Virus record (IMG/VR): IMGVR_UViG_3300044630_002618
Span: 1-64,000 of that record
Source of the DNA: a virus
Length of the DNA stretch: 64,000 nt
Strand: one strand, 5' to 3'
Each line of letters opens with the position of its first letter. Within the stretch, counting starts at the first letter, position 1. The notes beneath the pieces are model-generated. The model was given only the letters and a program-made list of their open reading frames with translations, was not told where the DNA came from and did no database searches. Shown here piece by piece: positions 2,687-17,268 of this stretch. A program made the position numbers and the translations under genes.

Positions 2687-3478
2687 TTACTTATTTTTCT
2701 TTGGACGACCGACTGCCTTCTTAGGGGCAGTCTCTTTCTTGGGGCGACCAACAGCCTTTTTAGGTGCTGGGGTGGTGTCTTTCTTAGGACGACCACCCTT
2801 GTTTGGTCCTTTAGGTTTATCGTTGGCTTGAACCTTAGTCTTAGCCTTCATATCAATTACATTGCCCTCAGCATCTCGGACATCTCGCGTAAGTTCACTC
2901 TGTCGCCTTGATGCTTCTCTATCTCGTTGTGCCATTCCAGCGTCCATACCTTCAGAACGCTGGGGTGCACGGTAAATAGGTGCGCCAGTATCTGTCATCA
3001 TGTCTTCTATTGCCGCTCGGCTACGGAGTATTCCTTCATAAAGAGCCGCATCTTCCGAACGAGCCTGAACTGGGTCAACGCGTGGGCTGGTAATGATACG
3101 AGGAACACCAGGACCAACAAGACTTGTGCTTTCAGTTAGAGGTGATCTTGGTTCCGAACTTGGGGTTGGGGTTTTACGCAATGCTTTTGGAAACACTACA
3201 TTTCGTTCATCACCTTGTACGGGTATTGCTCCTGTTACAACATCTGTTGGCACTCCCCCAGTACTTACTGGAGTACCACTGCGACCTTCAGCAAGTCGGG
3301 CACGAACTTCTTCATCCGAACCTAACTGGGCTACGGGATCAGCACTGGGTACGGTTCCCCGTCCTAAGAAGAAGTGTGAGTTCCTATTGATTTGACCGCG
3401 AAGGCGTTCAAATTGAGCAGAACCAGTAGGGCGGCTGGAATCATTCTCAGAGGTATTAAAGTTAATGTTATCAGCCAT
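2687..3478 (-). CDS. Triple AT-hook protein, 263 aa
   Basis: The first two thirds are mostly disordered, rich in Arg, Ser, Thr and Pro. The last 45 residues carry three GRPKK cores (GGRPKKDTT, VGRPKKETA, VGRPKKNK) separated by Lys/Pro/Ala spacers. G-R-P is the core of the AT-hook, which inserts into the minor groove of AT-rich DNA, so this is very probably a DNA-binding protein. It lies immediately upstream (in transcription, downstream) of a SpoVS homologue. Whether it packages, organises or regulates phage or host DNA cannot be told from sequence. Confidence 0.8.
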   Translation of the reverse strand: MADNINFNTSENDSSRPTGSAQFERLRGQINRNSHFFLGRGTVPSADPVAQLGSDEEVRARLAEGRSGTPVSTGGVPTDVVTGAIPVQGDERNVVFPKALRKTPTPSSEPRSPLTESTSLVGPGVPRIITSPRVDPVQARSEDAALYEGILRSRAAIEDMMTDTGAPIYRAPQRSEGMDAGMAQRDREASRRQSELTRDVRDAEGNVIDMKAKTKVQANDKPKGPNKGGRPKKDTTPAPKKAVGRPKKETAPKKAVGRPKKNK

Positions 3479-3481
3479 TAT

Positions 3482-3772
3482 TTACCTTTCTACAGGTTTG
3501 AAGGACATAGCACTTATTGTAGTACCATTTTCGCCTTCAATGTCATCAAAACCTATGACAAAGGTAAGGTCAACACCGCGTGGTGCAACAAAACCACGGG
3601 CAATAGCGCAAGCCTTGACGGCTTGGTTAACGGCTGATGCTCCGATAGCGCGAATCTTAGGTTGCTGTTTAGCGATAACTGCACGAGCAACGATTGAGCC
3701 GACACTTTGGGGATTACTGCTACCTGACACTTTAATAATGTCCTCTAGCGGCGCATTTAATTCTTGAGACAT
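3482..3772 (-). CDS. spoVS: SpoVS-family (Alba-like) protein, 96 aa
   Basis: Length and sequence match the SpoVS family of Bacillus and relatives: residues ~12-20 IIKVSGSSN, and the family signature near 43-60 (GASAVNQAVKACAIARGF) followed by VAPRGVDL. SpoVS proteins adopt an Alba-like fold and bind nucleic acid; in sporulating bacteria spoVS affects sporulation and septation, with a role as a DNA-associated regulator inferred. A GGAGT ribosome site precedes the ATG. The neighbour is a triple AT-hook protein, so two nucleic-acid-binding proteins sit together. Family assignment is confident; the phage role is not known. Confidence 0.9.
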   Translation of the reverse strand: MSQELNAPLEDIIKVSGSSNPQSVGSIVARAVIAKQQPKIRAIGASAVNQAVKACAIARGFVAPRGVDLTFVIGFDDIEGENGTTISAMSFKPVER

Positions 3773-3812
3773 TTGTACTCCAATTTAAAAGGGTTTGTTT
3801 AACCCCCTTATC

Positions 3813-4178
3813 TTAGAAGTAATTAGCCTCTTTAAGCAGTTCTATAAGGTCATCAAGGCGTAAGACAGCATAAGTATCACCTAGTGAATTAACTCCCTTA
3901 TTTGGTCGTTTAACTACTAGAGCAGGAATTGCGTCACCCTTTTGCTTGGCTTGTTCTACTGTGGCATCAAGCCACTGGCTGAGTTGGAATTGCCGTTGGT
4001 TCTTACATTGAACAATAGCATTTCTACCAGTTACTCGGTTTTTAATACCGTTGATATCGCCAGTATCAGCACCACCCTTGAGTGGTGTGCGCTCTGCGTC
4101 GGGGAAGCCATGCTCATTGAGGTAGTTCTTAATCATCGTTTCAAACGATGTACCTTTTTGTTTGGATGGATTAGCCAC
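3813..4178 (-). CDS. PD-(D/E)XK nuclease, Holliday-junction-resolvase-like, 121 aa
   Basis: The layout fits small resolvase-type nucleases: SFE with Glu13, then GADTGDI with Asp41, then VQCKN with Gln57 and Lys59, giving the E...D...QxK metal-binding site. Such enzymes cleave branched or other structured DNA during recombination and before packaging. The start is a GTG just after the previous gene's TAA. It sits at the end of the recombination block, near the Cas4-like and RecA genes. Exact substrate is inferred from the family. Confidence 0.75.
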   Translation of the reverse strand: MANPSKQKGTSFETMIKNYLNEHGFPDAERTPLKGGADTGDINGIKNRVTGRNAIVQCKNQRQFQLSQWLDATVEQAKQKGDAIPALVVKRPNKGVNSLGDTYAVLRLDDLIELLKEANYF

Positions 4179-4180
4179 CG

Positions 4181-4390
4181 TTAGACCTTTTTGAAAGCCT
4201 TGAGGATGTCATCAGTGCTCTTGTCAGTCCATTTATACATTGATGCAATGATCTGCGCCAGTTTGTCACGGTCAGCCATAAGGGTCTCAATGAGATGAAC
4301 CGCCTCAGCAAACTTGGTGACATCATAAGAGACGCCTGAAGCCGTGTTGATGGTTTGCTTGTTCTTGAGCCATTCGTAGATGTCACTCAC
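4181..4390 (-). CDS. Hypothetical protein, 69 aa
   Basis: A mostly helical, soluble small protein starting MSDIYEWLKNKQT. Its ATG overlaps the stop of the upstream 166-residue gene (ATGA). A competing minus-strand frame over the same bases is Arg/Ser-rich and lacks this coupling, so I take this one as real. No family is recognised. Confidence 0.65.
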   Translation of the reverse strand: MSDIYEWLKNKQTINTASGVSYDVTKFAEAVHLIETLMADRDKLAQIIASMYKWTDKSTDDILKAFKKV

Positions 4391-4887
4391 GCTGTGTACC
4401 TTGCCATTCTGTTGTCCTTACTACCAAGACCGATACGCCGTGATAGTTCGCGGGATAATAGTTGCGCCCCGCGTTCGCAGGTATCAAACATAGTCTGTAC
4501 CAGTTTACGATATGCGCGAGCAACTTGGTATGCCTCCTGCTGTGCAACCACTGCTGGGTCTACATCGCGTCGTGCTTTAGCCAAGGTTACTCGGTCAGCC
4601 TTGTCGGCTGAGTTCCACTGGCTAATGAGGACCATGGACTCAGACAGTCGGCACTTGTGGGACTGCTTGTCTTCGTCAATCTCAGCCTTGACTAACTCAG
4701 CCTGTGAATACGAGACCCAACCCATGAACTCTCTATAGAGATTCATCAGATCGGCGTCTGACAACCCGTCTAGGTCCCTCGGTATCTCGGGTGGGGATTC
4801 CGCTGGTCTCGCTGGGAGACTGAACTTGTCCGTGAACCTCTCCAACGGATCGTTGGACGGTACTGATCTGATTATTCGTGTCATCAT
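4387..4887 (-). CDS. Hypothetical helical protein overlapping the Cas4-like gene, 166 aa
   Basis: The protein is helical and charged, with a central DADLMNLYREFMGWVSYSQ segment typical of small actinophage recombination-locus proteins and a basic C-terminus. A GGGGAG ribosome site lies just before the ATG pair at 4887, even though this is 155 bases inside the 3' end of the Cas4-like gene. A shorter start (Met at ~4740) is possible but has no better ribosome site. Function is unknown. Confidence 0.7.
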   Translation of the reverse strand: MMTRIIRSVPSNDPLERFTDKFSLPARPAESPPEIPRDLDGLSDADLMNLYREFMGWVSYSQAELVKAEIDEDKQSHKCRLSESMVLISQWNSADKADRVTLAKARRDVDPAVVAQQEAYQVARAYRKLVQTMFDTCERGAQLLSRELSRRIGLGSKDNRMARYTA

Positions 4888-5752
4888 CTTCTCCCCAGCA
4901 TTTGTTTTTGTATGGGCATTTCTTGCATGTTGCGTTGTCTATTCCTGACGCCCAAACTGGGCGCATTGGTGGTCTCTTGCCTTCAAGATGAGAGACCACA
5001 TCTTTACATCCTTCAAGGATACTCTCAATAATCTCAGGTTGGAACCTGACATTGAATTCTTTTACATCCTGCGTTGGCTTCCACTCGTATATAAATGCCA
5101 GTTCGTGAATACCCATACAGAACATGTACATGTTTGCTTGGCGGAGATGGGATGGGAATGGCTTACGAATGCGATTCCATAATTCATCTATGGTTATTTC
5201 ACCCTTAGAGTAAGGTACGAATAACTCAGGAGCCTCAAATCTAATAGTCCCAGTGCCGACACTCTTAATCTCAATCAAAAGTTGACCGTTTGCGTCTTCA
5301 ACGATTCCGTCTGCATGACCCGTGATGTTGTATTCCTCATTACGGATCGGGACTTCTGCGTAACGGATACTGTTGGAACCACAACTACATAATGAAAAGT
5401 CTTCTTCTGAGACAGTCCCACAGGCATTGCACTTGAATAGTCCCCGTAGAACTCCAGCGTTCCGTAACCACTGTTGCCACTTATGGTGGATGGCGTTACC
5501 TTCAGCAAAAATGTTAAGGCGACCAAAGGTGAGTGTCTCGGCTGGTTTAGGGAAACCCTTAATCGCATACCATGACGAGCGCGGACACCAATCCTTCTTG
5601 CAGATTTCGCTGGGGTGTAAGCCTAAGGTATCGCGTTTAGCCTGACCATTGACATTCTCTAATGACGCCTGGACTCGGACAATTGGTACGATCCGTCCAG
5701 TTGATTTGGCATTTTCTTTGAACTGGTCTAATAACCATTTACTGCTACTCAC
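4733..5752 (-). CDS. Cas4/RecB-like PD-(D/E)XK exonuclease with zinc-ribbon insert, 339 aa
   Basis: Cas4-like layout: Cys51/Cys56 near the start and a C-terminal CKKCPYKNKC cluster (Cys276, 279, 285) could together hold an iron-sulphur cluster. The nuclease core shows His89, GHAD (Asp148), IEIK (Glu161, Lys163) and a QANMYM motif with Gln205. An extra zinc ribbon (Cys108, 111, 122, 124) is inserted before the core. Such enzymes resect DNA ends for recombination, and the gene sits two genes from recA. The last ~50 residues, after the Cys cluster, are low-complexity and overlap the next gene in another frame. Confidence 0.85.
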   Translation of the reverse strand: MSSSKWLLDQFKENAKSTGRIVPIVRVQASLENVNGQAKRDTLGLHPSEICKKDWCPRSSWYAIKGFPKPAETLTFGRLNIFAEGNAIHHKWQQWLRNAGVLRGLFKCNACGTVSEEDFSLCSCGSNSIRYAEVPIRNEEYNITGHADGIVEDANGQLLIEIKSVGTGTIRFEAPELFVPYSKGEITIDELWNRIRKPFPSHLRQANMYMFCMGIHELAFIYEWKPTQDVKEFNVRFQPEIIESILEGCKDVVSHLEGKRPPMRPVWASGIDNATCKKCPYKNKCWGEDDDTNNQISTVQRSVGEVHGQVQSPSETSGIPTRDTEGPRRVVRRRSDESL

Positions 5753-6077
5753 TGATCATCTCCAAAAAGTCGTCTTCGCGCAGGATGACATACCTCTTGC
5801 CACCTAAGTCAAATTGTAATACTGGTGTTCGGTCTTCTTTGATAGCCACAGTTTCTAGATCACGGAGGTCCGTAAACTTGATTGAGTAAGACTTAAGGTT
5901 ATCTGTAAACTTATTCTCAATAAGAAAATGTTCTGATCTGACATCATTCTTACGCAACCAACCCGATCCTGACCCAGCGTTACGGCTCCCCTTATAGGCA
6001 GACGCTGTTCGGTCTTCTTGCTTGCGCGATTTCTTCTGAATGTATCGCTTTTCGCTACCGTCTGAGCCAATAATCAT
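5745..6077 (-). CDS. Phage PD-(D/E)XK endonuclease, 110 aa
   Basis: The segment RNAGSGSGW, then Asp45 (NDVRS), then Glu54-x-Lys56 (IENK) followed by Ser63 fits the small phage PD-(D/E)XK endonuclease family often found beside recombination genes. These are thought to cut branched DNA or to act as resolvases. It is coupled to the RecA-like gene by an ATGA overlap and overlaps the Cas4-like gene by 8 bases. The N-terminal 30 residues are basic and probably disordered. Confidence 0.75.
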   Translation of the reverse strand: MIIGSDGSEKRYIQKKSRKQEDRTASAYKGSRNAGSGSGWLRKNDVRSEHFLIENKFTDNLKSYSIKFTDLRDLETVAIKEDRTPVLQFDLGGKRYVILREDDFLEMISE

Positions 6078-7087
6078 TTGACAGCGAAATGGTTTCGTGC
6101 GACTTCAGTGAGGGCATCCCTAAGACCGAGGTCTTCACGAACTGACGCAAGGACGGCATCCTTGCCCTGCCATTTCTGACCGTTGAACGAGTAGAACGCA
6201 CCAGCGCGTGTGATGGCGTTAATAGCAATAGCAATATTAACGATATCTTTAATGGTGTCAAACTCTCCGAGTTTAAAACCACTGGCGCTACCGTCCGCGA
6301 AGTAAAAGTCAACTTGTGCTGTCTGTTGTGGGCGGTAAGTCTTATTCTTTAAAGTACGCGCTTTGATGACCTGACCAAAGGCTTCGTCTTTTTCTTTGAT
6401 CCACTCATCGCGTTTAACTTCCACACGAGTGAAGTAATGGTAGTTCTTAGCCTTACCCCCAGGGGTAGTTCGTGGGTCACCATACATAACACCAATCTTT
6501 TCGCGCCACTGGTTAATCATTAAACCTGTGCAACCACGGTCGGCATTAACCATTGAACGCTTCTGAGCCTTGGCGCTCTTCTTCATAAACTTGCTGGTGA
6601 GTCGGGCACCGAGACCTACGGTGAACTCTTCCATCATCTTTTCGTTCTCATCATTGGGGATAAGGGCTGGGAATGAGTCAACCACGATGCAGTCCACGGC
6701 TCGGTTATCTAGAGCCTTGGTGATGAGGTCATATGCCTGTTCCATAATGTTGGTCTCAACGATCCAAATGCGCTCTAAGTCAATGCCAATTGCTTGGGCA
6801 TACTCGGGAACGAACTCTTCAGCCGCGATCCATAGGACGACCCACTCAGGGTCTAAGGCTTGATTAGCCGCGATTGTCTTGAGAACAAGAGCAGTCTTAC
6901 CTGATGATTCATCTCCAATGATCTCAGACCATTGGTTGACAGGCCAACCGCCACCGAGCATGAGGTCAAATGCTAAGACTCCCGTAGTAATACGGGGAAG
7001 TTCTTGGCGCATCTCTGAACCCTTGATGATGGTATTAGCGCCATGCTTCTTATTGATGATGTCCTTGATTGATTCAAAAGTGTCCAT
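6074..7087 (-). CDS. recA: RecA/UvsX-like recombinase, 337 aa
   Basis: Walker A GDESSGKT (residues 58-65), Walker B DCIVVDS (~132-138) and the L2-region stretch NQWREKIGVMYGDP followed by TTPGGKAKNY (~192-215) identify a RecA-family strand-exchange ATPase. It would form filaments on ssDNA and drive recombination-dependent replication and repair with the phage SSB and nucleases encoded next to it. The length is close to bacterial RecA (about 350), with a shorter C-terminus. The downstream nuclease start overlaps its stop. Confidence 0.95.
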   Translation of the reverse strand: MDTFESIKDIINKKHGANTIIKGSEMRQELPRITTGVLAFDLMLGGGWPVNQWSEIIGDESSGKTALVLKTIAANQALDPEWVVLWIAAEEFVPEYAQAIGIDLERIWIVETNIMEQAYDLITKALDNRAVDCIVVDSFPALIPNDENEKMMEEFTVGLGARLTSKFMKKSAKAQKRSMVNADRGCTGLMINQWREKIGVMYGDPRTTPGGKAKNYHYFTRVEVKRDEWIKEKDEAFGQVIKARTLKNKTYRPQQTAQVDFYFADGSASGFKLGEFDTIKDIVNIAIAINAITRAGAFYSFNGQKWQGKDAVLASVREDLGLRDALTEVARNHFAVK

Positions 7088-7474: not shown

Positions 7475-7958
7475 CGTCTTCGTCCTCCTGTTCTCCGTTG
7501 AAATATTCGTCCCATCCATCATCTTCGTCGTCGTCGTCAAAGTCAGGAGGGTCAATTGAGAACATACTAATCACTGAGATCATCTGGTTGAGTGCATCGG
7601 GTGGAATAACTAGTGGAATTTCTCCACATATTTTAATATCTTGGTTATCTAAGAGCATGGTTATAAGTGAGACACCAAACGAAGTGAAGAGGGCGACAGA
7701 AACATCAACCTCTTTTTCGTCAAGGTCATTTTGTAACTGGATGATATGGGACACCCATTCAGAGCACTTAGTTATGTCGTCAAGTAGTCCGAGAGCCTTT
7801 AGGGTAAACCACTTACCCATAACATCTGTGGTTTCTTGTTCCATGACTTCTTCTGAGGGAAGCGAGAAACCAGCCATCTCGGCAATCTCTTGACCGTCTT
7901 GTGGGGACATAGTCAGGAGAAATGTTCTGTGGTTCAGTGGTTCGTAATCTTCGTTCAT
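7467..7958 (-). CDS. Acidic hypothetical protein, 163 aa
   Basis: A soluble protein with a hydrophobic helical core (for example VALFTSFGVSLITMLL at ~90-105) and a very acidic tail of about 25 residues (DDDDEDD ... EQEDEDDE). It is coupled to the polymerase gene by an overlap at 7955-7958. The acidic end could mimic DNA or bind a basic partner such as SSB or a histone-like protein, which is inference only. No family is recognised. Confidence 0.65.
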   Translation of the reverse strand: MNEDYEPLNHRTFLLTMSPQDGQEIAEMAGFSLPSEEVMEQETTDVMGKWFTLKALGLLDDITKCSEWVSHIIQLQNDLDEKEVDVSVALFTSFGVSLITMLLDNQDIKICGEIPLVIPPDALNQMISVISMFSIDPPDFDDDDEDDGWDEYFNGEQEDEDDE

Positions 7959-10054
7959 TTTCCCTTAGCCTCCGACCATGAGTTTGCTGAATGACAGGAT
8001 ACCTTCAATGGGATACCAGCGATAACTCGGTCTTGACCCATGGCTTGAACCATTACTTTTTGTGCTTCTTCTATGTGCTTATTTGGGACTGCTACCACTA
8101 ACTCGTCATGCACCTGTACCAATATCTTGGCATTGAATGGTTTCAGTGCTTCGTGAACATCAATCATAGCGATCTTGCAGATATCAGCCGCGGAACCTTG
8201 AACAATAGCATTGATTGCTTGGCGTTCTGCTCGTGCTCGTAAACCCTCATCACGACTTGTAAGTTCAGGTAGCCGACGACGACGACCCGACAAAGTACTC
8301 ACATAACCGCGTTGTATTGCTTTTACAATCTCAGTGTTCTTCCACGCAGATATTCCACTAAATTGTTTGTAATAGTTATTAATTACTTCTCTTGCTTTTT
8401 TTTCAGTAATGCCTGTAGTGCGAGCAAGTTTCTGTGCACCACCGCCGTACGCTGTCAGGAAGTTAACTCCCTTACCCAACTGTCGTTCCTCGGAAGTTAC
8501 ATCAGCGACTGGTTTGTTTAGGACAAGGGCGGCAGCGCCAGCATGGATGTCCTGCTCTTCAAGGAAGAACTTACTCATATTCTTATCCTTAGAAAACATG
8601 CACATAACCCTTAGTTCAATCTGATCATAGTCAGCCACGAGCAATGTATGACCGGCTGGTGCTACGAACAAACTCCGGATGCTGGAATCTCTTGGAATGT
8701 TTTGAAGATTGGGGTTACTAGAAGACAGGCGACCAGTTGCAGTTCTGTGGAGATGGTATGAGGGGTGAAGGCTATTGTTGACCAACTTTAGAAGAAGGCT
8801 GTCAACATAGGTTGACTTCATCTTCTTTACTTCTTGCCACTCAAGTAGTAATGGGATGAGTGGGTGGGCGTTTTCAATGAAGCGCAATGCTTCTTCGTCA
8901 ACAGATGACGCACCCTTGGCAGTCTGCTTGTGGGACTTTAGACCAAGACCACCATCTGCTTTGCTTTTAAATAAGAACTCTTGCTTACTCTTGTTGCTAT
9001 CGGGATTGAACCCTAAGGGGGTGAACTGGGACATCTCATTTAAGAGATCGCGCATGCGACCATCCAGTTCCCGACCAAGGACAACCATGGCACTTTTTTT
9101 GACAGGAATACCAATGTCTTCCATGTCCATAATGACACGGAGTACAACCATGTCTTGATCAAGGGCGTTCCGTAGACCTTCTTTGTTCTTGATCTTGTTC
9201 CACAGTCGCTTGTAAAGCATCCATGTCCAGCGGACATCTAGGTGGACATATTTGGTAGCCGATGAGAACGCCACGGTATTGATGATCTTGCCGAGTTTGC
9301 CCTCTTTGTAATAGGCGTCGTGCCCGTCATAATTGTGGGCGATTAAATCTGTCAGGCTGTAGCCACGGAGATTCTCATTCACGATGTGTTGCATGAGCAT
9401 CGTGTCCATAAATCCTGACAAAGGTAACTCAACATTTAGATACTTGCGAATAGAGCGGGCGTCAAACTTGACATTGTGACCCACCTTGATGATATTTGGG
9501 TCAGAGAATAAGGGTTCTAATGCTGTAAACACATCAGAACGAGATAGTTGTTCGGGTGGTGCGCTGAATACAGCGGGGATACGGTAACGAATCTTTGCCT
9601 CGGACTCAGTCCCATCCTTTTTTAGTTTGCGGTAGCCAGTAGGGGGAACGGTTGAACCGTCGCCAACTTCTTCGGGGACAATGATCTCACCGCATAAATG
9701 TCCCATTGGTATAGCCCAGGAATGACCATCGGTGGCTATACCAATCCAAAAGACTTCGTTACGCAAGGGATCAAGGGCGATGATACCTCGCCACTTTTCC
9801 ATCAGTCGTTCTTGCGTGGCTTCTCTAACCGCTGGGGAAGTAGTTACCATGTCGGCTAGGTGTTGCTTGAGTTCAGTGTTAAATGCATTCATGGCGTCAG
9901 CATGACGCTCAACTATTCCGCGTGTCTCCACATCAAATGCAAAAGCACCTACGCTTTGCACGATCTTAACGATCTCATGGATTTCTTCAATCGTAGAAAC
10001 AACAAGGGGAGGGGCTGTTAGACCCCTCCCCTCGCTACGAATATCTACGCTCAT
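7955..10054 (-). CDS. polA: DNA polymerase I (family A) with 3'-5' exonuclease domain, 699 aa
   Basis: The N-terminal exonuclease shows FDVETRG (Asp41, Glu43) and VGHNVKFDARS. The polymerase domain has motif A LLVADYDQIELR, motif B with the R-K-F-Y helix (RQLGKGVNFLTAYGG) and motif C VQVHDELV. There is no 5' nuclease domain, as in T7-type and other phage enzymes. At the position equal to E. coli 762 the residue is Phe, which in surveys of virioplankton polymerases is often associated with virulent phages. It would copy the phage genome with the helicase, primase and SSB encoded upstream. Confidence 0.97.
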   Translation of the reverse strand: MSVDIRSEGRGLTAPPLVVSTIEEIHEIVKIVQSVGAFAFDVETRGIVERHADAMNAFNTELKQHLADMVTTSPAVREATQERLMEKWRGIIALDPLRNEVFWIGIATDGHSWAIPMGHLCGEIIVPEEVGDGSTVPPTGYRKLKKDGTESEAKIRYRIPAVFSAPPEQLSRSDVFTALEPLFSDPNIIKVGHNVKFDARSIRKYLNVELPLSGFMDTMLMQHIVNENLRGYSLTDLIAHNYDGHDAYYKEGKLGKIINTVAFSSATKYVHLDVRWTWMLYKRLWNKIKNKEGLRNALDQDMVVLRVIMDMEDIGIPVKKSAMVVLGRELDGRMRDLLNEMSQFTPLGFNPDSNKSKQEFLFKSKADGGLGLKSHKQTAKGASSVDEEALRFIENAHPLIPLLLEWQEVKKMKSTYVDSLLLKLVNNSLHPSYHLHRTATGRLSSSNPNLQNIPRDSSIRSLFVAPAGHTLLVADYDQIELRVMCMFSKDKNMSKFFLEEQDIHAGAAALVLNKPVADVTSEERQLGKGVNFLTAYGGGAQKLARTTGITEKKAREVINNYYKQFSGISAWKNTEIVKAIQRGYVSTLSGRRRRLPELTSRDEGLRARAERQAINAIVQGSAADICKIAMIDVHEALKPFNAKILVQVHDELVVAVPNKHIEEAQKVMVQAMGQDRVIAGIPLKVSCHSANSWSEAKGK

Positions 10055-16824: not shown

Positions 16825-17268
16825 ATGGCGACAGCCCCAGCCCTTACCAAATCCCTCAAAACCCTATTATCTGACACCGTCACTTTCTACTTCATGGCGC
16901 ACGGATTTCACTGGAATGTTGAGGGTTCTGACTTCAGCCAGTACCACGGTCTCTTCGCAGAAATCTATGAAGATGCCTACACAATGATTGACCCAGTCGC
17001 TGAGAACATCCGCAAACTGGATGATTACGCACCGTTCAATCTTCAGAAGTTTATTGATCTTCGGACACTTGAATTCAAAGAAGTAAGTCCGAATCCTAAG
17101 GCAATGTCAACGGCATTGTTGAAGGCTAACGAGGCACTGATCACTCAGTTAAATGCCTCATTCAAAGAAGCAACCAAAGCCGACCAGCAGGGTATTGCAA
17201 ACTTCTTATCCGAGAGGGTTGACAGTCAAATGAAATGGTCATGGCAACTACGAGCATCGGTTAAGTGA
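16825..17268 (+). CDS. dps: Dps-type ferritin-like DNA-protection protein, 147 aa
   Basis: The conserved ferroxidase stretch is present: HGFHWNVEGSDFSQYH followed by F-E-Y-D spacing and a VAE(N) segment, which together form the inter-subunit iron site of Dps. Dps dodecamers oxidise and store iron and shield DNA from peroxide. The start has a clear AAGGAG. It is the first gene of a plus-strand island. The Lys-rich N-terminal tail used for DNA binding in E. coli is short here, so iron detoxification may be the main role. Confidence 0.85.
   Translation: MATAPALTKSLKTLLSDTVTFYFMAHGFHWNVEGSDFSQYHGLFAEIYEDAYTMIDPVAENIRKLDDYAPFNLQKFIDLRTLEFKEVSPNPKAMSTALLKANEALITQLNASFKEATKADQQGIANFLSERVDSQMKWSWQLRASVK

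Follow-up and report, generated by a model that had tools for sequence, protein, structure and literature searches.

What is a gene of the SpoVS family doing in a phage genome, and with which of its neighbours does it act? The window analyzed here comprises positions 1 to 64,000 of the 91,403-base virus record IMGVR_UViG_3300044630_002618. A sequence-only reading of it had taken the gene at 3482-3772 for a phage-borne SpoVS homologue and proposed that, lying beside a DNA-binding gene, its product could reprogramme host DNA organisation or cell division during infection.

The identification itself held up well. The open reading frame runs on the minus strand from an ATG at 3772 to 3482, stop included, and encodes 96 aa, while the plus strand is interrupted by stops over the same interval. 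The protein contains the SpoVS signature quoted for it (GASAVNQAVKACAIARGF) and matches the Pfam SpoVS family PF04232 with an E of 2.8e-21 and 75.5 bits, three-fold above the curated cut-off of 24. It also matches PHROG 35646 ('sporulation protein', E 1.3e-15) and the Thermus SpoVS structure PDB 2eh1 (E 1.8e-13). No unrelated family matched better in the Pfam scan of the 96-aa protein, the next match having an E of only 0.11. The typical SpoVS length is kept only roughly (96 vs. 89-90 aa for the solved Thermus protein), the surplus residues forming a low-confidence N-terminus. This is the only SpoVS gene in the whole record. Purifying selection on it is strong: across the 59 window-clade pairs whose synonymous differences fall between 0.1 and 0.6, median dN/dS is 0.068.

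An AlphaFold2 model of the single chain, built from 24 relatives, had a pLDDT of 88.8. The closest structure was the SpoVS of the YunD complex 9a7h (Z 15.1), followed by Thermus SpoVS 2eh1 (Z 14.4, rmsd 2.0, 86 residues aligned); known members of the family (PF04232; Thermus 2eh1/2ek0 and B. subtilis SpoVS) resemble the window protein at 38-46% identity over 86 aligned residues, with Z of 14-15. Archaeal Alba entries matched at Z 9.5-10.1 (Foldseek E about 1e-3, TM 0.52-0.60). In the model, the window protein has the alpha/beta fold of archaeal Alba 1h0x (Z 10.0 over 82 residues), the two differing in sequence (13% identity). RNase P proteins and IF3-C also match the fold, and a likeness to the cell division protein SepF (Z about 6) was treated as a common structural arrangement. 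Six basic residues (K14, R30, R41, K53, R59 and R65) are invariant across 24 SpoVS rows. The window gene is thus a true SpoVS with an Alba fold, as the sequence-only reading had supposed. Its surroundings are as follows:

2687..3478, minus strand: lysine-rich protein with three AT-hook-like GRPKK repeats, downstream of SpoVS
3482..3772, minus strand: SpoVS-family protein with an Alba fold (96 aa), from Pfam, PDB profile and model
3773..3812, minus strand: 40-nt leader from the resolvase stop to the SpoVS ATG, from sequence and folding
3813..4178, minus strand: predicted Hjc-like PD-(D/E)XK Holliday-junction resolvase (121 aa from a GTG start), next to SpoVS on its upstream side
4181..4390, minus strand: small variable ORF, in 28/80 relatives
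4387..4887, minus strand: conserved module protein, in 79/80 relatives
4733..5752, minus strand: Cas4/RecB-like exonuclease (phrog_2506, 4.8e-32)
5745..6077, minus strand: second Holliday-junction-resolvase-like protein, HJR2002 (phrog_2002, 8e-21)
6074..7087, minus strand: RecA/UvsX-type recombinase (PF00154, 3e-53)
7955..10054, minus strand: family A DNA polymerase with 3'-5' exonuclease (PF00476, 8e-111; PF01612, 2.5e-16)

The carrier is a tailed phage. Its terminase and RecA are nearest to those of the Streptomyces phages BRock, LuckySocke, Alone3, GiJojo and pSt2308 (46-48% and 42-45%, respectively), and these five phages account for all six Streptomyces records found with SpoVS, BRock being entered twice. 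The HJR2002 protein is shared with BRock-type phages (51% to BRock gp69), and no DNA-level match of SpoVS plus resolvase was found in named phages. Two WhiB genes lie on the minus strand of the record outside the window (85452-85649 and 87644-87844, E 4e-21 and 4e-18), and WhiB was found within the module in 52/52 of the relatives (L170-L249) in which both HJR2002 and the exonuclease were found, of 80 loci. Taking WhiB as a host marker, the host is probably actinobacterial. There are no tRNA genes in the 64-kb window, and a promoter scan returned 12 sites against 12.2 expected. Elsewhere in the window, an ORF at 16825-17268, which we take to be Dps/ferritin-like, lies on the plus strand, opposite to its neighbours, and a long (PQ)n stretch (1-168) forms the C-terminus of an ORF running off the window start.

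The claim that SpoVS sits beside a DNA-binding gene was true only in a loose sense. The AT-hook-like repeats of the lysine-rich protein fall below the Pfam cut-off (E 0.26) and the gene is kept in only 11/80 relatives, and we reject it as a SpoVS partner. The neighbour that is conserved lies on the other side, upstream, and is the Holliday-junction resolvase.

We asked how constant this arrangement is. The order PolA, x, RecA, HJR2002, exonuclease, conserved protein, resolvase, SpoVS recurs among 80 SpoVS-selected contigs (each set of related loci consisting of the best 80 rows). Since this first set had been chosen by SpoVS, the count was repeated with RecA as bait. SpoVS was present in 41/41 RecA-selected contigs that extend 4.5 kb or more beyond RecA, of the best 80, and in 13 of the 39 shorter ones. 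In a second, more distant set, found with an alignment of RecA from across the wider group, it was present in 43/43 of the contigs reaching at least 5 kb (of the best 80), each time with a resolvase within 200 nt. SpoVS is also the best conserved of all the proteins measured. Among 35 contigs with RecA below 95% identity, median identity to the window was 79.2% for SpoVS, compared to 70.6% for RecA, 61.3% for PolA, 61.2% for the resolvase and 48.6% for the exonuclease, and SpoVS identity exceeded that of RecA in 35/35. SpoVS thus belongs to the core of the replication and recombination module; its presence in 41/41 and 43/43 contigs, inside the recombination module, rules out an auxiliary metabolic or sporulation gene of the accessory kind, patchy and outside the core.

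A resolvase lies within 200 nt of SpoVS in 251/251 clade loci whose upstream sequence is 700 nt or longer (four others were too short), and SpoVS is directly 3′ of it in every one. These 251 loci come from both the SpoVS- and the RecA-selected sets, and many share contigs, so that they represent 197 distinct segments. It should be noted that the resolvase HMMs were made from upstream neighbours in SpoVS-selected sets, which makes the RecA-selected sets the fairer test. The gap between resolvase and SpoVS is short (36-180 nt, n=254) compared to that between exonuclease and resolvase (311-4780 nt), and in BRock and LuckySocke extra genes lie between exonuclease and resolvase, with none between resolvase and SpoVS.

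The resolvase, on the other hand, is not always the same protein. The 3813-4178 product is predicted to be an Hjc-like Holliday-junction resolvase: it matches PDDEXK_15 (4.8e-8) and phrog_244 (6e-28), its profile matches archaeal Hjc in PDB (1hh1, E 1.1e-4), and the four top Foldseek matches of its model are Hjc chains (1gef, 4.7e-4; Hjc Z 8.8). D41 and K59 are invariant in 89/89 of these Hjc-like resolvases. The middle residue of the PD-(D/E)XK motif appears to set the window protein apart from archaeal Hjc, being Q (QxK rather than ExK), whereas it is E in three relatives (L176, L223 and L224). In BRock and LuckySocke the equivalent place is taken by a RuvC-like resolvase (phrog_159, 6e-33 and 7e-29), and in a third group by endonuclease VII (PF02945, E 3e-27; phrog_307). 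BRock gp51 (phrog_35646) thus occupies the same module position behind a resolvase as the window SpoVS, to which it is 41% identical, but its resolvase is RuvC-like where that of the window is Hjc-like. Among 163 SpoVS loci, 89 have a PD-(D/E)XK, 64 a RuvC and 8 an endonuclease VII neighbour, with 2 cut by the contig end; the adjoining resolvase is one of three unrelated families. Misannotation does not account for the swap, given that the RuvC-like protein of LuckySocke and the Hjc-like protein of the window have no similarity (E 24) and that endonuclease VII scores far above its cut-off. No match to endonuclease VII was found elsewhere in the window's own record, in a search where no positive control matched either. 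In an Actinomadura atramentaria isolate, HJR2002, exonuclease, endonuclease VII and SpoVS are consecutive; this module, in an isolate genome, is prophage-like.

How often the resolvase changed can be estimated from the RecA tree, a quick tree of 51 rows dereplicated from 220. By parsimony the resolvase label changes at least 4 times, the minimum possible being two, although only 2 changes of the PD-(D/E)XK label are required by the well-supported branches, and L176 sits on a long one. In the SpoVS tree (61 rows, only 90 columns), all 34 resolvase-coupled rows, with the three kinds of resolvase together, fall on one branch (SH-aLRT 99), the other side of which holds 27 chromosomal, Bacillus-type phage and Riflebacteria/Wallbacteria rows. 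The resolvase-coupled phage proteins are thus a separate subfamily within the SpoVS family. Since a single SpoVS branch carries all three resolvase kinds, we infer that the resolvase was exchanged next to a SpoVS that remained in place.

The chromosomal relatives are tied to other neighbours. SpoVS occurs in 65/198 genomes of the phylum of Actinomadura and in 32/36 of that of the Riflebacteria genome, and the actinobacterial cluster reads recA-recX-rny-GHKL-spoVS-miaB. We compared 40 loci, 38 from the matches of the first phylum (Actinomadura included), one from Riflebacteria and one from Wallbacteria. Upstream of spoVS, RNase Y was found in 36 loci, a GHKL ATPase in 34 and RecA in 31, and MiaB followed downstream in 36. 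The RecA count misses some genes, since the first 20 windows spanned about 10 kb. In these first 20 loci 133 neighbours were called; among the 93 of them scanned, Pfam confirmed families of the RecA, RecX, RNase Y, GHKL and MiaB type. In the 34 loci that have it, the GHKL-type ATPase has about 370 aa and separates RNase Y from spoVS. None of the recA-rny-GHKL-miaB neighbourhood was found at the Riflebacteria, Wallbacteria and Actinomadura loci or at a second copy in one genome (L475), and the lack of recA at the Riflebacteria and Wallbacteria spoVS loci counts against the recombination reading proposed below. A profile scan of the genome contigs with the phage alignment recovered only 5 loci, owing to phage-specific patterns. 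Thus, chromosomal SpoVS has rny and miaB as neighbours while the phage SpoVS, apart from it at SH-aLRT 99, is tied to a resolvase; the recA linkage of the chromosomal genes nonetheless points in the same direction as the recombination context of the phage genes. In line with this, the B. subtilis group listing of a co-evolution survey, as far as its available excerpt goes, holds spoVS together with recA, recU and recX (PMC3814617).

In other phages the picture is mixed. The profiles used detected no RecA, exonuclease or resolvase at 39 Lysinibacillus/Bacillus-type loci with SpoVS, and there was no resolvase neighbour of SpoVS in phages TS-12 and LysYB1. Pairing with a resolvase is therefore a trait of the actinophage group that does not extend to every phage SpoVS. 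At three unrelated phage loci (L351, L353 and L354), SpoVS lies between DUF1351 and RecT, which is a second link of SpoVS with recombination; further Bacillus-type loci adjoin terminase or other genes (46 neighbours, from a subset of loci).

We propose that the Alba-fold SpoVS is a core accessory of recombination in a large group of actinobacterial tailed phages, a nucleic-acid-binding component of the replication and recombination module that would act with the adjacent resolvase. It would bind or shape branched DNA arising from the RecA pathway of the phage, and would help, direct or hold back the adjoining Holliday-junction resolvase, so that phage DNA would be freed of junctions ahead of packaging. 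The context is strong and the mechanism is what we infer from here on; we put the probability of this reading at about 0.5. Nucleic-acid binding, dimerisation and a physical or functional coupling to the resolvase would all be expected of the protein. Alba is a basic protein, unlike the nearly neutral window SpoVS (net +1, pI 7.9), and this charge counts against the proposal, in which DNA binding is putative. A model of a B. subtilis complex (9a7h) does so as well, pairing SpoVS with YunD, which is not a recombination protein. A precedent for the coupling exists in the archaea, where the available excerpt of one study describes a viral archaeal Hjr co-purified with Alba, its authors noting that nucleic acid may bridge the two (PMC3157427).

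The rival with the best claim, although we think it improbable, is that the adjacency could be inherited gene order, SpoVS being a core protein of phage DNA metabolism whose gene merely comes next behind the recombination module, with the resolvases replaced independently, in place. The remaining genes of the module hold their order as well, and the leader in front of SpoVS fits this idea. In the window, a hairpin at about 3809..3787 is followed by TTTT and by a Shine-Dalgarno GGAG at 3781..3778. In BRock-type phages, a terminator-like hairpin with T runs precedes a -10-like sequence, and terminator-like hairpins and a -10-like sequence in BRock-type and endonuclease VII-type phages fit a transcription-unit boundary. 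With a hairpin and a -10-like sequence between the genes, resolvase and SpoVS may not share a transcript, and a transcription-unit boundary would count against direct coupling of the two. Inherited order fits less well with the frequency of insertions elsewhere, both in the exonuclease-resolvase interval described above and in front of the downstream gene 1884-2372 (at 147-6223 nt), compared to zero in 251/251 loci between resolvase and SpoVS. In addition, the gap of about 40-50 nt in the window clade leaves scant room for a promoter.

The leader could alternatively be a target of SpoVS itself, which would then be an RNA-binding regulator of phage or host mRNA, possibly of its own structured leader, adjusting late-gene expression. 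SpoVS leaders are indeed structured (median z -1.79, with z < -1.5 in 28/44 distinct leaders), including those of the RuvC and endonuclease VII groups, while fewer control leaders reach z < -1.5 (exonuclease 1/33, RecA 2/41, resolvase 8/26, HJR2002 2/15). ACAA occurs in 44/61 SpoVS leaders vs. a shuffled mean of 12, though the rows are related. The fold is near IF3-C and Alba and matches RNase P proteins, and as RNase Y adjoins spoVS in the chromosomal cluster too, a role with RNA is equally well placed there. In the hairpin, 12 pairs of 6 rows gave no two-sided change, a count that decides neither way. Against this reading, an RNA regulator would leave the repeated pairing with resolvases unexplained. 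We consider this regulator unlikely; the leader may serve attenuation, translational control or as a transcription-unit boundary.

A still less probable explanation is the one offered by the sequence-only reading and by the published auxiliary-gene view, in which SpoVS alters host sporulation, division or the nucleoid. According to the available text of one study, B. thuringiensis SpoVS mutants show delayed polar septation and lowered pro-sigE and spoIIE expression (PMC8510167). Phage spoVS genes are in print as sporulation auxiliary genes from peat soil and an oxygen minimum zone (PMC6172770, PMC8940887), and the former cites a WhiB-family member of phage TM4 that affects septation, the record having two WhiB genes of its own. 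These genes are phage-borne like that of the window, but are read there as sporulation genes, and the available excerpts of the two accounts make no mention of a recombination context. Takeover is not our preferred reading, given a core gene that lies in the recombination module: it is universal there, in phages from freshwater as in those of Streptomyces, its conservation exceeds that of RecA, and the lysine-rich gene downstream, the proposed DNA-binding companion, is kept in so few relatives. The proposed reprogramming of the host is thus unsupported. Finally, a decoy that competes with the chromosomal protein and diverts host recombination to the phage, as the recA-recX-rny setting of actinobacterial spoVS might suggest, is very improbable, the phage branch being distinct from the chromosomal one and many possible hosts lacking SpoVS (65/198 genomes with it).

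Returning to SpoVS as a recombination accessory, a broader version can be entertained tentatively, although we would not bet on it: at root, SpoVS may be a bacterial accessory protein of Alba fold that serves RecA-dependent recombination and the resolution of junctions. The phage subfamily would then be a general cofactor for any Holliday-junction resolvase fold (PD-(D/E)XK, RuvC-like or endonuclease VII), and the 'sporulation' name would come from an effect in Bacillus that is secondary to recombination or chromosome handling.

Phage spoVS is itself already published, and a 2024 survey places SpoVS within the Alba superfamily, phage being unmentioned in its available text (PMC11621453). No link between SpoVS and a resolvase was found in the literature searched, in titles and the openings of abstracts on SpoVS. 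SpoVS is widespread and, in the literature found, has no assigned molecular function. Three resolvase folds swapped beside one unchanged SpoVS provide a direct, testable lead to that function, and BRock and LuckySocke propagate on laboratory Streptomyces, which puts the test within reach. Globally, our data suggest that SpoVS serves recombination and not sporulation or cell division. The argument that viruses steer dormancy has drawn on phage spoVS copies taken as sporulation genes; should the phage SpoVS indeed be a recombination accessory, those ecological readings would need correction.
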